Assembly: GCA_018268355.1 (NCBI GenBank)
Contig: JAFDWR010000001.1
Coordinates: 707,858 to 771,857 of the forward strand
From: Armatimonadota bacterium
Lineage (GTDB): Bacteria > Armatimonadota > Fimbriimonadia > Fimbriimonadales > Fimbriimonadaceae
Reading direction: 5' to 3'
DNA: 64,000 nt
Shown: piece after piece, positions 18,700 to 38,177 of the stretch
Layout of the letters: every line of letters begins with the position of its first letter
Position numbering within the stretch: position 1 is the first letter of the stretch
The notes under the pieces: model-generated
Databases searched by the model: none
The model's input: only the letters and a program-made list of their open reading frames with translations
Told to the model about the DNA's origin: nothing
Made by a program: the position numbers and the translations under genes

Positions 18700-19749
18700 G
18701 TGACGAACGACCCACTCTCGCGTTTCCGTTCCCGCAAGCTGTTTATTCATGACCGGAGCTCGTATCTCCGGCCCATGTCGGTGCAAGAGACGATCGATGC
18801 CAGCGCGAACCTCTATCGGCTGGTGGGTTGGCCGCTGCTGAAGGCTTGCTGGCTGAGCGCGACCCTGATGTACCTCGGCTATGAGTTCCTCCTCAGCGCG
18901 GCCCTGCCGAGGATCGCGAAGACCGCCTACCCGGGCAACCTAGCGGCCCAGGTGATGGAGGTGACCGTGCTTCTGATGATCATCAGCTGCGTGATCATCC
19001 CCCTCATCCTCTTTGGTGCGTCGTGGGTGACCGCCGTTTCTGCCCAGGTTGCGGCATCCGTAATCCAGGGCAACACCTTCCACATCGGTCACGCCACCGC
19101 CACCGCGAATCGAAACATCTTCCGCCTCTTCGGGCTCACTGCGGCGCAGTCGTTCGCCAGGTTCGGGGCGGTGGCCTTTTCGGGGCTGCTCATCTTTGGC
19201 GGTGGTTTCCTCGCCAAGTCGGTCCCCGACAACGCGGGCGGTGACTTCCTTTCGGGCCTTGCGTTGGTTGCTGGCTTTGCGGGGATCGCAGTCGGGCTCA
19301 TCTTGAGCCTGGTTTTCACAATTCAATACTCGCTGGCAGTCCCGGCCATGCTCGTCGAGGGGATTGGCGTCCGCGCTGCCTTGAAGCGCAGCGTGAGCCT
19401 CCTGAAGCGGCGCAAAGGGGTTCCTGATGGAAGCACCGCCGCTTTCAATGGCCTGGTGCTCACGGTCTTCCTCTTTTTGCTCCTCATCGCAGGGATCAGC
19501 ACGATCTACTCGTATGTGAACTCGAGGGCGATCTACGCGGTGATCAACCAGTTCCCCCTCGGCGGCTACCTGCCGGCTTTCCTTGAGCGGTTGCCCGTCT
19601 TCCTTGCCCTTTGGGTGATCGTCCCCTTTGGCGCGTGCCTGAACACGATGTTCTACTTTGAGCGGCGCGTTCGGCTTGAGGGGTTCGACATCGAACAAAT
19701 TGGACTTCAGACTCGGAGGAAAGCGCTTGCGATTCGCTACGACCTTTAG
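18700..19749 (+). CDS. Polytopic membrane protein, GPDPase-membrane-domain-like
   Basis: 349 aa with about six hydrophobic segments (near 55-75, 88-112, 145-170, 185-210, 245-270, 290-320). A conserved-looking amphipathic R-A-A-L-K-R-S-V-S-L-L-K-R segment near 225-237 separates the last two pairs, a pattern seen in the glycerophosphoryl-diester-phosphodiesterase membrane domain / DUF7544-type proteins, in which V-R-A-L-x-R-S-x-x-L is typical. No catalytic domain is attached. GTG start lies 5 bases after the operator-like dyad, so the mRNA leader must be very short or absent. First gene of an operon with DUF4129 and DUF4350 proteins, which often accompany such membrane proteins. Confidence 0.6.
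   Translation: MTNDPLSRFRSRKLFIHDRSSYLRPMSVQETIDASANLYRLVGWPLLKACWLSATLMYLGYEFLLSAALPRIAKTAYPGNLAAQVMEVTVLLMIISCVIIPLILFGASWVTAVSAQVAASVIQGNTFHIGHATATANRNIFRLFGLTAAQSFARFGAVAFSGLLIFGGGFLAKSVPDNAGGDFLSGLALVAGFAGIAVGLILSLVFTIQYSLAVPAMLVEGIGVRAALKRSVSLLKRRKGVPDGSTAAFNGLVLTVFLFLLLIAGISTIYSYVNSRAIYAVINQFPLGGYLPAFLERLPVFLALWVIVPFGACLNTMFYFERRVRLEGFDIEQIGLQTRRKALAIRYDL
19715..19720 (+). promoter_or_regulatory. Shine-Dalgarno GGAGGA fixing a TTG start
   Basis: GGAGGA ends 6 bases before TTG 19727 and lies within the end of the upstream membrane-protein gene. It selects TTG as start of the DUF4129 protein, which then opens directly with a signal peptide. Confidence 0.65.
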
Positions 19750-32085: not shown

Positions 32086-33150
32086 TCAGTCGGCAGCGAT
32101 GCCGACTTTGATCATCACCGTCACTTGCATCTGGTCGCGTAGCAGCTTCACGCGGACCACCTGTCCCGCCTCGAGGTTCAATAGGAACCAGGCGAAGTCG
32201 GTCGTGGTCTTGATCGGCGTGTTGTCCATGCTGAGGATCGTATCGCCCGCGTGGACGCCCGCCTCTTCTGCCGGTGACTTCTCGGTGACCGACTGCACGA
32301 TCACGCCGCCCATCATCACCGGGCTGTCCTTCACGAACAGTCCAACCGCGGGGTGCTTGACCACGTGGTCCGACGAGGCAAAGCCCTTCAGGACTCGGCG
32401 CATGATCTCAGGGCCAAGCGTGTAAGCCGTCGTCATGTCGCGCGGGCCGAATGAGCGCTTCATCGCATTGTTGTCGGTCAGCTGACCGCGGATTTCTCCG
32501 CCGCCCGACTGGCCACCGACGCCGTTGTTCGGCTGTCCGCCCGGGGTTGCGCCGGCAAAATTGCCCGTGCCTCCACGGCTGTTCTGCGTTCCTGCGGCTT
32601 GGAGCGAGGCGCTCAGGACGCCAACGAACTGTCCGTCGCGCGTGAAGACCAGCGCACCGGCGATATTGGTTTCCGGCAGCTCAAATCGAAGCTCGTTCAG
32701 GCTCGTCATGCGGCGAGTAGCGCGCTCATAGCCGAGCATGCCGTTCGAGGCCATTTCGCCGCGGACGGTCCCTCCGGCAAAGGCGACGAGCAGGGGCGTT
32801 CCCGCGCGGATATCGCGCCGGGCGATCGGCTTCAGCTCTTGGACTTCGCCCGGTTTCCAGCCTTCCGCCTTAAGCAGCGAAAGGTGGCTCACCTCATCGG
32901 ACGAGACAAGCTTGAAGGTCACCGGCTTGCCGTTCGCCTTCCCAGTGAACGACTTTTCGACCTCACCATAGGTGATGAAGTAGCCGTTTCGGTCATCTAC
33001 GAGCAGGGCGAGGCCGTTCGTCTTGGTGGACGGGTACGAGGCGACGGCAGGCGCAATCTTTTGCCACGCCGCGCGCTCGAAGTCCATCAAGTCCGACTGG
33101 GGGAGTTCGCCTCCCACCCAAGCGTTAGCCACCCACAACAACGTCAACAC
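32086..33150 (-). CDS. HtrA/DegS-like PDZ protein with inactive trypsin-like domain
   Basis: 354 aa. N-terminal hydrophobic export signal or anchor, a trypsin-like domain (about 40-190), a Gly/Asn-rich linker (about 195-225) and a C-terminal PDZ domain (about 255-350: V-T-E-K-S-P-A-E-E-A-G-V-H-A-G-D-T-I-L-S-M-D). Laid against HtrA, the catalytic His region (T-N-N-H-V) reads I-T-Y-G-E-V, the Asp region (D-L-A-V-L-K) reads H-L-S-L-L-K, and the Ser loop (G-N-S-G-G-A-L) reads T-N-I-A-G-A-L, so all three catalytic residues are gone. GTG start overlaps the anti-sigma gene by 26 bases, third in a sigma/anti-sigma operon, suggesting a peptide-sensing pseudoprotease. Confidence 0.7.
   Translation of the reverse strand: MLTLLWVANAWVGGELPQSDLMDFERAAWQKIAPAVASYPSTKTNGLALLVDDRNGYFITYGEVEKSFTGKANGKPVTFKLVSSDEVSHLSLLKAEGWKPGEVQELKPIARRDIRAGTPLLVAFAGGTVRGEMASNGMLGYERATRRMTSLNELRFELPETNIAGALVFTRDGQFVGVLSASLQAAGTQNSRGGTGNFAGATPGGQPNNGVGGQSGGGEIRGQLTDNNAMKRSFGPRDMTTAYTLGPEIMRRVLKGFASSDHVVKHPAVGLFVKDSPVMMGGVIVQSVTEKSPAEEAGVHAGDTILSMDNTPIKTTTDFAWFLLNLEAGQVVRVKLLRDQMQVTVMIKVGIAAD
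32088..32109 (+). terminator. Hairpin after recJ, inside the convergent PDZ-protein CDS
   Basis: Perfect 8-bp stem AGTCGGCA (32088-32095) / TGCCGACT (32100-32107) with a GCGA tetraloop, followed by only TTTG. It starts 5 bases after the recJ stop and covers the last codons of the minus-strand gene. Weak U-tract, so termination is uncertain. Confidence 0.5.
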
Positions 33151-33985
33151 TGTTGGTCGTTACCTCCGTGGCGCGGTTGGCGCCGGTCAATAGGTCGGTG
33201 TCCGAATCGATGATCACGATCTTAGGTTCAGCCTTGGGCGGTCCCATCTTGCTTGCCACCATCGGGGCAGGCGATGCGATCGGCTTCGGAGGCATGCCAA
33301 AACCGTTGCTCGCACCGCTCGGGCGCGGCGCACCGTCGGCGATGTCAACATTCGGCGTCACGGCCGGAGCCGGCTTCTCAGGAAGGATCTTGGGCACGGA
33401 AGCTTCAACCAGTGCAGGACGGCGAACGCGGCGAACCGTCCGTTCGGGCGTGCTCTGGCGAGGCTTGACCGGCTCATTAAGGAACGCGCGAAGCCCCGTT
33501 GAGCTTGCGCCACCCACCAGGCCCTCGGAAGCGGCACCGGCAAAATCCGGCCTCATCGCAACCGAAGCGGCGTCGCCACCGTTCGCCGAAGGAGCGGGCG
33601 TGGGCACGAAAATCTGATTCGGCGAGGGCGAAGGAACGTTAAACGCAAGGTTCGGTTCCGCCTTCGGGCGAAGATTGAGCATGACGACGGCAAGCGCAGC
33701 CGCACCCAGTGGGGCGAGAATCCACCCCCAGCGCGTGCGTGACTTGGCGACCGGAGCCGCCATCGGACCCGCCGAGAGGATCCGATCCTTGACGCCTTCA
33801 AAGTTGATCTGGGGCTCGGGGACTTCGCGCAGCATCTGGAGGTCCGACTTCAGCTGGCGCGTCATTTCGAACTCGCGGAGGGCGGCTTGGTTGCCGCGAT
33901 GACCCGCGAGCCAGGCCTCGATCTCATGATCGGGCACTTCGCCAAAAGCGAGTTGGATCAGCTCTTCTTCGTTTCTCTTTGCCAT
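33125..33985 (-). CDS. Membrane anti-sigma factor, RseA-like layout
   Basis: 286 aa from ATG 33985 (an ATG three codons upstream has no properly spaced ribosome site). Short cytoplasmic N-terminus (about 1-75) with E-E-L-I-Q-L-A-F-G-E-V-P and a helical L-R-E-F-E-M-T-R-Q-L segment, no H-x3-C-x2-C zinc motif; one membrane helix near 92-108; then a long Pro/Ala-rich periplasmic region. Gene order (24 bases after an ECF sigma gene) indicates it binds that sigma. It overlaps the PDZ pseudoprotease by 26 bases. Regulated proteolysis as in RseA is possible but the window has no matching site-2 protease. Confidence 0.72.
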   Translation of the reverse strand: MAKRNEEELIQLAFGEVPDHEIEAWLAGHRGNQAALREFEMTRQLKSDLQMLREVPEPQINFEGVKDRILSAGPMAAPVAKSRTRWGWILAPLGAAALAVVMLNLRPKAEPNLAFNVPSPSPNQIFVPTPAPSANGGDAASVAMRPDFAGAASEGLVGGASSTGLRAFLNEPVKPRQSTPERTVRRVRRPALVEASVPKILPEKPAPAVTPNVDIADGAPRPSGASNGFGMPPKPIASPAPMVASKMGPPKAEPKIVIIDSDTDLLTGANRATEVTTNSVDVVVGG

Positions 33986-34009
33986 GATGTCCATTCCGTC
34001 AGTCGGGGG

Positions 34010-34633
34010 TTAAGACGGGTCCTCCAATAGCGGTGCAATTCGTTCTTTCAAAGCGCGTCGTGCTCGGAGCACGCGGAGCTTGGCTCCGCCGACCGAACAC
34101 CCTAAAATTTCGGCGATATCCGTGTATTCCTTCTCTTCAATGTCGCGCAACACGATGACATTTCGGTGATGAGGCGGCAGCGCGGCAAGGGCCTTTCGAA
34201 GGGCAATCTTGCGTCTGTCTTGCTCAAGGTTCTCGTTGGGATCCTCGTTCGATCCGATTGTCATCCAGTCCAGTCCGTCGGTCGCTTCCTGCTGCTCGAG
34301 GGCCGTGCGACGCTGGTTCATGCGAGCGCGGTCGGCACAGAGGTTAGAAACGATCCGAAGCAGCCAGGTGCTGAATTTTGCTTCGTCGCGATACTTCGGC
34401 AGGTGCTGGTACGCCCGGACGAACGCTTCTTGAGTGACATCTTCGGCGTCGTCTCGGCGTCCCGTCATCTGATAGGCGAACCGATAGGCCAAGACTTGAT
34501 AGCGGTGGTACAGCGTTTCGAACGCGGCGAAGTCACCATCACGGGCGCGACGAACCAGAAATTCATCTGATTCATCACTCGCCGCTTTTTGACTTGGCCA
34601 AGTGCTCGTGTTCAAAACTCCATCCAATGCCAT
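34010..34633 (-). CDS. ECF (sigma-70 family) sigma factor, RpoE-like
   Basis: 207 aa from ATG 34633, preceded by AGAGGG; a longer TTG start at 34690 is possible. Region 2: F-L-V-R-R-A-R-D-G-D-F-A-A-F-E-x-L-Y-H-R-Y (about 25-45), then D-A-E-D-V-T-Q-E-A-F-V-R-A-Y and F-S-T-W-L-L-R-I-V-S-N-L. Region 4: L-P-P-H-H-R-N-V-I-V-L-R-D-I-E-E-K-E-Y-T-D-I-A-E-I-L-G-C-S-V-G-G-A-K (about 150-184), ending R-V-L-R-A-R-R-A-L. Recruits RNA polymerase to stress promoters; controlled by the membrane anti-sigma encoded next. Confidence 0.93.
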   Translation of the reverse strand: MALDGVLNTSTWPSQKAASDESDEFLVRRARDGDFAAFETLYHRYQVLAYRFAYQMTGRRDDAEDVTQEAFVRAYQHLPKYRDEAKFSTWLLRIVSNLCADRARMNQRRTALEQQEATDGLDWMTIGSNEDPNENLEQDRRKIALRKALAALPPHHRNVIVLRDIEEKEYTDIAEILGCSVGGAKLRVLRARRALKERIAPLLEDPS

Positions 34634-34697
34634 GGCGTGTTGACCCTCTTCATTCGTTCGACGGTCAACGAAGGCATTCGTTACGTTCAAGTTTAGT

Positions 34698-36697: not shown

Positions 36698-37291
36698 ATG
36701 GACCGTCCGTCGAGCGATGCCATCCTGATTGAACGCGCCCAACGCGGCGACCGTTCGGCCTTTGACGACCTCGTCCGCCGCTATGAGGCGAAGGCCTATC
36801 AATACGCCTTCCGGCTCACCCGCAACCAGGAGGAAGCCTGCGACGTCGTCTCCGATGCCTTCATCCGCGTTTACAACGCGCTCCACAACTTTAAGGGCCA
36901 ATCGACCTTCTCCACCTGGCTCTATCGAATCCTGACCAACTGCTTCCTCGACTCGCGCAAGAAGGAAAAGAACCGCCAGACCGTTTCTCTAGAAGCAAAC
37001 TTCCAGACCCTTGAAGGTGAGATCGAGCGTGAAGTCGAGGACGAACGCCCCAGCCCGCTCGAAGAGACCGAGAAGAACGAGCGAGAGGCACGGATGCAAC
37101 GCGCGGTTGCGATGCTGCCCGAATTCCAGCGGGCGATGATTGTCATGTACCACGCCGAGGACATGACCTATGAGGAGATTGCGGAGTCGCTCGACCTTCC
37201 CGTCGGCACCGTGAAGAGCCGCCTCAATCGAGCCCGCAGCAGCCTCCGAGAATTACTCATGAAAGATTCGGAACTCTTTTCGGCTTCGTAA
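36698..37291 (+). CDS. ECF sigma factor
   Basis: 197 aa. Region 2 (about 10-85): L-I-E-R-A-Q-R-G-D-R-S-A-F-D-D-L-V-R-R-Y, then E-E-A-C-D-V-V-S-D-A-F-I-R-V-Y and F-S-T-W-L-Y-R-I-L-T-N. An acidic linker, then region 4: L-P-E-F-Q-R-A-M-I-V-M-Y-H-A-E-D-M-T-Y-E-E-I-A-E-S-L-D-L-P-V-G-T-V-K-S-R (about 133-168). Second of three ECF sigma genes here; its membrane anti-sigma follows 49 bases downstream. Confidence 0.93.
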   Translation: MDRPSSDAILIERAQRGDRSAFDDLVRRYEAKAYQYAFRLTRNQEEACDVVSDAFIRVYNALHNFKGQSTFSTWLYRILTNCFLDSRKKEKNRQTVSLEANFQTLEGEIEREVEDERPSPLEETEKNEREARMQRAVAMLPEFQRAMIVMYHAEDMTYEEIAESLDLPVGTVKSRLNRARSSLRELLMKDSELFSAS

Positions 37292-37340
37292 AGTCGAAAA
37301 TCGTATTACAACTACCATTGGGATCATGGTGAGGCCCTAG

Positions 37341-38177
37341 ATGAACCGAGACAAGGCAAGAGAATTCTTCTCAGCATATGCTGAAGGCACCCTCGATGAA
37401 GGGTTGAAGCAGTCATTCGAACTGCGACTCCAGAACGACCCCGAGCTCAACAAGGAGTATCAGGCGTTCGAGACCACCTACCGCGCCCTCGACTCCATGA
37501 AGTCTGAGGCGATCCATGTCCCTGCCGACCTGCACGAGCGCATTTCGGCTCGCCTCGACCGGCAGATTTGGGAACAGAAGCAAAATGCCGCTCCCGCCTG
37601 GAAAGGCTGGCTGAGGAACCTCGGCTTTGCGGGCATCGCGGGTCTTGCGATCCTCGGTGGCGTCCTCGCCCTCCGCGGCGGACCTTCGCAAACGGTTGGC
37701 GCTGGCATGTCGGGAAGTGGTTCGCAGGCGGGCCACCTGATCACCGAATCGAAGGGCAACGTCGTCAAGGCGAAGTACCTTTCGGGTCGCGACATGAATG
37801 GCACCGTTGACGGTCCGATGGGTCGTCAGCAGCTTCAAATTCCGCGCGGCACGCCGTGGGAAAGCACGTTTGAGAACAAGCAGCCCGGCGCCGCGATCTT
37901 CCGTGTGAAGATGGAAGGCGACGTCGAGACCACGGTGGTGGCGATCCCCGGCAGCAGCCCCTCGGCAGTCGCAACCGGTCAGGGTGACCTCGATCAGATG
38001 CTCAAGAGCGCGGCTGACTTCTACAACACGCCCATCGTGGCCCGCGTCACCGGCAAGTCGGTTTCGTACAAGTGGGAGTGGAAAGAAGGCAACGCCTTTG
38101 ACAGCCTGAGCAATGCGATCGACAACCGCGGCTCGGTGCAGAAGAAGTCCACTGGCCTCGAAATTACGATCAACTAA
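37341..38177 (+). CDS. Putative membrane anti-sigma factor
   Basis: 278 aa. N-terminal ~75 residues are helical with A-R-E-F-F-S-A-Y-A-E-G-T-L-D-E and L-R-L-Q-N-D-P-E-L-N-K-E-Y-Q-A-F, the layout of zinc-less anti-sigma domains (Y-x-E-G-x-L). One membrane helix near 95-112, then a Gly-rich periplasmic part with A-K-Y-L-S-G-R-D-M-N-G near 145 and a beta-rich end. Position behind an ECF sigma gene is the main evidence for the role. Ends with a strong terminator. Confidence 0.72.
   Translation: MNRDKAREFFSAYAEGTLDEGLKQSFELRLQNDPELNKEYQAFETTYRALDSMKSEAIHVPADLHERISARLDRQIWEQKQNAAPAWKGWLRNLGFAGIAGLAILGGVLALRGGPSQTVGAGMSGSGSQAGHLITESKGNVVKAKYLSGRDMNGTVDGPMGRQQLQIPRGTPWESTFENKQPGAAIFRVKMEGDVETTVVAIPGSSPSAVATGQGDLDQMLKSAADFYNTPIVARVTGKSVSYKWEWKEGNAFDSLSNAIDNRGSVQKKSTGLEITIN

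Follow-up and report, generated by a model that had tools for sequence, protein, structure and literature searches.

Envelope-stress pathways are commonly described as cascades of proteases. DegS, a membrane-anchored enzyme with an active H-D-S triad and a PDZ domain that binds YxF, makes the site-1 cut in such a cascade and is encoded outside the rpoE-rseA operon, and the RseB/MucB proteins have a LolA-like fold joined to a second domain. In the rpoE-rseA-rseB operon of E. coli, a sigma factor and a membrane anti-sigma factor are followed by a non-catalytic envelope protein, RseB. This protein is believed to hide the site-1 site of RseA from DegS until misfolded OMPs and lipoprotein intermediates bring about its release (PMC10202637). 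In M. tuberculosis, rseA-htrA-tatB lies next to sigE, an arrangement whose meaning has been called hard to understand (PMC10027907). MamO, a relative of HtrA, has an inactive catalytic site and serves a role other than catalysis (PMC4794232). In the literature that we searched, subscription papers aside, there was no description of a catalytically dead HtrA in a sigma operon.

The window, by which we mean the whole 64-kb stretch of DNA analysed (G000:C1:707858-771857), comes from a 2.7-Mb genome of the order Fimbriimonadales, phylum Armatimonadota, and holds one operon, entirely on the minus strand, that encodes an ECF sigma factor, a membrane anti-sigma factor and a PDZ protein of the HtrA fold (Table 1). 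The sigma factor matches Sigma70 region 2 (PF04542, 4.4e-21) and region 4 (PF08281, 6.2e-14) and has no region 3, as is required of the ECF class. Its start is placed at ATG 34633, with TTG 34690 also possible; the ATG is favoured because of where the conserved promoter sits (Table 1). An earlier note on this DNA had described three consecutive genes with a 24-base gap and a 26-base overlap, and this layout was borne out, both distances being dependent on the starts chosen: the gap between the sigma and anti-sigma genes is 24 bases with ATG 33985 and 15 bases with ATG 33994, and the overlap between the anti-sigma and PDZ genes is 26 bases if the GTG start is right, TTG and GTG alternatives lying within 20 bases. 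That the operon arose by chance or by an annotation error was ruled out by its conservation.

Table 1. Features of the sigma operon, in window coordinates.
Feature	Position	Strand	Basis
ECF sigma factor, regions 2 and 4	34010..34633	(-)	Pfam matches and order-wide orthologue group
Membrane anti-sigma factor, consisting of a helical domain at the N-terminus, a single TM helix, a linker rich in proline, and a hairpin plus tail at the C-terminus	33125..33994	(-)	
HtrA-fold pseudoprotease with a hydrophobic stretch at the N-terminus and a single PDZ domain at the C-terminus	32086..33150	(-)	
Promoter of the ECF type, GTAAC-N16-CGTC, lying 26 bases upstream of the sigma ATG	34660..34684	(-)	Conserved in orthologous upstream regions
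Predicted TM helix of the anti-sigma factor, residues 85-107	33674..33742	(-)	
Conserved C-terminal region of the anti-sigma factor: predicted beta-hairpin (259-266, 273-278), end TGAxxAxEV...VVxGG-stop	33128..33220	(-)	
Codon of E63, catalytic His position	32962..32964	(-)	Alignments
Codon of H89, catalytic Asp position	32884..32886	(-)	Alignments
Codons of I163-A164, either of which holds the nucleophile Ser position, by alignment register	32659..32664	(-)	
PDZ domain, residues 277-349	32101..32322	(-)	PF13180 (PDZ_2), E 6.8e-18

The third protein can be assigned firmly, on its predicted structure and on profile comparisons, to the HtrA/Deg fold, a chymotrypsin-like domain followed by a PDZ domain. 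With Pfam only PDZ matches were obtained, Trypsin_2 scoring 15.3 bits, below the cut-off. However, an AF2 model built from 57 orthologues (pLDDT 85, pTM 0.79) matched HtrA structures over its full length, with Z scores of 25.1 for Deg1, 24.0 for Rv1223, 23.6 for AlgW and 23.4 for DegS, and gave Z 20-25 to DegS, DegP, Deg1 and Rv1223 across 253-287 residues. The superposition on DegS (3gdv), of the kind that the earlier note had proposed, aligned 273 residues at 3.3 Å and likewise indicates an HtrA fold. A profile of the pseudoprotease domain retrieved the true HtrAs of these genomes at E about 1e-8, and the operon members of outgroup families scored 58-84 bits against Trypsin_2, above the cut-off; it is because of these matches, together with the structural ones, that the assignment is firm.

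The gene order had been likened to rpoE-rseA with a DegS-type partner. This analogy is misleading, because DegS cuts and lies outside the rpoE-rseA operon, and the seat taken here is that of RseB or, where the HtrA is active, of the M. tuberculosis htrA. The window protein resembles DegS and AlgW in combining a trypsin-like domain with one PDZ domain, but these two proteins have an active triad, a membrane anchor and a cutting role and are encoded outside the sigma operon, whereas the window protein is without the triad. With RseB it shares its place after the sigma and anti-sigma genes, whereas its predicted HtrA fold sets it apart from the LolA-like fold of RseB/MucB; we infer by analogy that its role may be RseB-like, built from an HtrA. 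The M. tuberculosis locus has the same order of sigma, anti-sigma and HtrA, and its Rv1223 matches the predicted fold at Z 24, but the HtrA there is an essential serine protease and sigE and rseA are not cotranscribed (PMC10027907). A dead operon HtrA also bears on the unexplained htrA beside rseA in mycobacteria. MamO differs in that its catalytic residues are placed and its site is blocked, in its TauE-like fusion, and in serving biomineralization, with no link to a sigma factor.

The segments TYGEV, HLSLLK and TNIAGAL correspond to the positions of His57, Asp102 and Ser195, and all three are substituted, so that the His-Asp-Ser triad of HtrA/Deg serine proteases is absent from the window protein. 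H89, which occupies the Asp position, is the sole His of the protease domain, and a conventional triad can therefore not be built from other residues. For comparison, orthologous loci of relatives were retrieved with the sigma alignment as the query; families carry the arbitrary labels f1-f45, f1 being that of the window and f2, f3, f4 and f5 belonging to the same order. Among 85 Fimbriimonadales orthologues His was never found in the His column (S in 38, E in 16, others in the remainder), Asp was present in 7, and the Ser column was mostly V, L or I. At the Ser position the alignment can be read in two registers one residue apart, and a shift from one to the other brings a Ser into the column in a few orthologues (for example L071, L072, L076, L069 and L114), never together with a His. 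The claim that each catalytic position is substituted therefore stands (E63, H89, and A164 or I163), and a homologue that keeps H-D-S in the operon, which would have spoken against it, occurred neither among these 85 orthologues nor among 10 others.

It could still be argued that the protein cuts by an unusual mechanism: the outgroup members retain the Ser and have D or E in the His position, and sedolisins use Glu as a base. The window protein and nearly all f1 and f5 orthologues, however, have no Ser there, and in the window protein the one His of this domain sits where Asp should be, which makes residual proteolysis scarcely credible. The gene is nevertheless not decaying, since dN/dS in close pairs is about 0.006-0.1, indicating purifying selection on a protease-dead product. 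These findings suggest that the pseudoprotease probably senses or shields by binding and not by cutting.

The pseudoprotease gene was found in 110 of 113 Fimbriimonadales genomes, a count in which, for a few incomplete genomes, the match may be another HtrA instead; the three genomes without it are two reduced genomes of 1.5 Mb and one that is 68% complete. The most reduced genomes of the window's family, G028 and G093 (f1, genus g29, 1.5 Mb), have neither the sigma factor nor the pseudoprotease. Every Fimbriimonadales locus with enough flanking sequence carries the sigma orthologue in the same orientation, 350-900 bases upstream of the pseudoprotease gene, and the anti-sigma gene lies between the two. 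The sigma orthologue group is well delimited, at >234 bits compared with <195 bits for the other ECF sigma factors of the phylum. One locus with the operon (L137, JADZEW010000008.1) is titled as a Methanoregulaceae archaeon; its sigma factor is 74% identical, and it is probably a mislabelled Fimbriimonadaceae bin. Two weak Trypsin_2 proteins of the window's genome (C4:65866 and C2:270778) were rejected as second copies, since they have no adjacent sigma gene and no match to an HtrA model.

Beyond the order, the nearest relative of the sigma factor in the outgroup families f13 and f19 is also followed by an anti-sigma gene and then by an HtrA gene, whose product has D or E in the His position and N in the Asp position and retains the Ser. 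In f2 the three sites hold E or D, then G or N, then P or S. No HtrA was found next to 8 more distant sigma relatives (among L213-L221), the ninth locus being incomplete. All 49 HtrAs sampled elsewhere in these genomes have an intact H-D-S triad, and in a quick maximum-likelihood tree they fell on one side of a branch (SH-aLRT 99), with 25 of 25 sampled operon members on the other. These sequence comparisons fit, and do not prove, one ancient recruitment in which His and Asp were lost first and Ser later in the Fimbriimonadales; this order of decay is provisional because several operon members are long branches in the tree. The members that kept the Ser and those that lost it would form a natural series for the passage from HtrA protease to signalling scaffold, and the operon HtrA would have lost its chemistry in an ancestor, in contrast to the usual account of these pathways. 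In one f13 genome, a second sigma gene is closely followed downstream by a second Trypsin_2 protein (G152:C146:13218-15594), possibly a paralogous system.

Prediction gives the anti-sigma factor a cytoplasmic domain of helices, a single TM helix, then a long proline-rich linker, disordered and of low confidence, and finally a C-terminal beta-hairpin. A fold search with its model returned nothing significant, RskA appearing only at E 8.3, and zf-HC2 was not matched by the window protein and only weakly by 4 of 55 orthologues (best 8e-4). The H-x3-C-x2-C motif is present in the f2, f13 and f19 orthologues; the f1 anti-sigma factors have lost this zinc motif. In f1 and f5 the last 25 or so residues are strongly conserved, as T-G-A-x-x-A-x-E-V ... 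(D/N)-V-V-x-G-G-stop. Only the last six codons overlap the PDZ gene, the TGAxxAxEV part preceding the overlap, and the tail is conserved at the first and second codon positions of the anti-sigma reading frame, the third being free, and is also kept at loci where the PDZ start codon lies elsewhere; codon-position entropy and these loci rule out that its conservation is a by-product of the overlap. The tail was not found in other proteins of 21 genomes. The ends are lineage-specific while the operon persists: GG-stop in f1 and f5, -SF in f2, and -Y or -W in most of f13, and such ends beside a PDZ protein have the look of a matched ligand-receptor pair. The f2 end (AIICSF-stop or VGSF-stop in L070-L086, L222 and L223) recalls the C-terminal Phe ligands of DegS-type PDZ domains.

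A dead operon HtrA is thus under strong selection across the order and its relatives, beside an anti-sigma factor with a conserved tail, and the two give a concrete handle on how stress is signalled in a phylum that has received little study. It is possible, although we would sooner bet against it, that a pseudoprotease lineage as old as the phylum, having decayed stepwise (His and Asp, then Ser), has become a dedicated receptor of the anti-sigma tail, a cutting sensor turned into one that registers envelope stress by binding.

With regard to mechanism, we tentatively propose, at a little under an even chance, that the dead HtrA is the shield of an autoregulated switch for envelope stress, which binds the C-terminal part of the anti-sigma factor, gates a true protease and is released by a ligand. 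In the resting state the ECF sigma factor would be held by the membrane anti-sigma factor, and the exported pseudo-HtrA would bind the hairpin and tail through its PDZ groove, its dead active-site groove or both, shielding the anti-sigma factor from the site-1 protease. Competition at the PDZ domain from misfolded-protein termini or other ligands would lift the shield; the site-1 protease, putatively one of the genome's four HtrAs over the Trypsin_2 cut-off, would then cut, and a site-2 protease (M50) would act on the anti-sigma factor, so that the sigma factor would be freed and the operon induced. The genome does encode a site-2 protease of the M50 family, along with four HtrAs that exceed the Pfam cut-off, and a normal proteolytic cascade is therefore available without the pseudoprotease. 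Export is likely, although the N-terminal hydrophobic stretch has no positive residues of the kind typical of signal peptides. A shield built from an HtrA is favoured because the third seat of rpoE-rseA-rseB belongs to RseB, a non-catalytic shield, and we also count for it the conservation of the operon, the unique tail, the lineage-specific ends, the conserved promoter, the purifying selection and the absent His. Against it stand the C-terminal Gly-Gly, which is unusual as a PDZ ligand, and the consideration that the pseudo-HtrA could equally activate or recruit a protease. This last is the main rival reading, in which the protein would be a positive partner that activates or recruits the site-1 protease, either by assembling into hetero-oligomers with an active HtrA or by bringing one to the anti-sigma factor. 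Triad-intact HtrAs exist in the same genomes, and MamO, though dead, is needed for MamE proteolysis (PMC4794232); the gene order nevertheless recalls a regulator in RseB's seat, and we regard a positive role as unlikely.

The complete loss of catalysis and the conserved tail would also suit a stress sensor that works by allostery alone, free of any protease, with a PDZ ligand altering the hold on the tail and the change being relayed across the membrane. However, an M50 site-2 protease is present, and the tail is joined to the membrane by a long linker, rich in proline and modelled with low confidence, through which a mechanical relay would be difficult, so that this model appears decidedly improbable.

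Upstream of the sigma gene, G(A/T)AAC-N16-CGTC was found in 33 of 37 non-redundant loci and in none of the antisense and reversed controls. An ECF-type promoter of its own implies positive autoregulation, and the operon is thus probably autoregulated. Self-induction would also be expected if the pseudoprotease were a regulon member of general use in the periplasm, as a chaperone or a binder of ligands, encoded in the operon but making no direct contact with the anti-sigma factor, and HtrA proteins can act as chaperones. Its strict linkage across families to one sigma pair, together with the unique conserved tail of the anti-sigma factor, argues against such a general function, which we consider rather improbable.

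Across the window's own genome, promoter-like sites showed no excess over the control in a search for the regulon (27 versus 51). The only gene with partly conserved sites encodes a LolA-like protein (PF17131; 17956-18663, minus strand), a candidate regulon member with GAAAC-N16-CGTC at 18702-18726, 38 bases upstream, and 7 of 30 genomes, that of the window among them, retain this site, with 0 in controls. In addition, another pair of genes lies 2 kb from the operon and divergent from it (36698-38177, plus strand), the first for an ECF sigma factor and the next for a membrane protein that resembles an anti-sigma factor.
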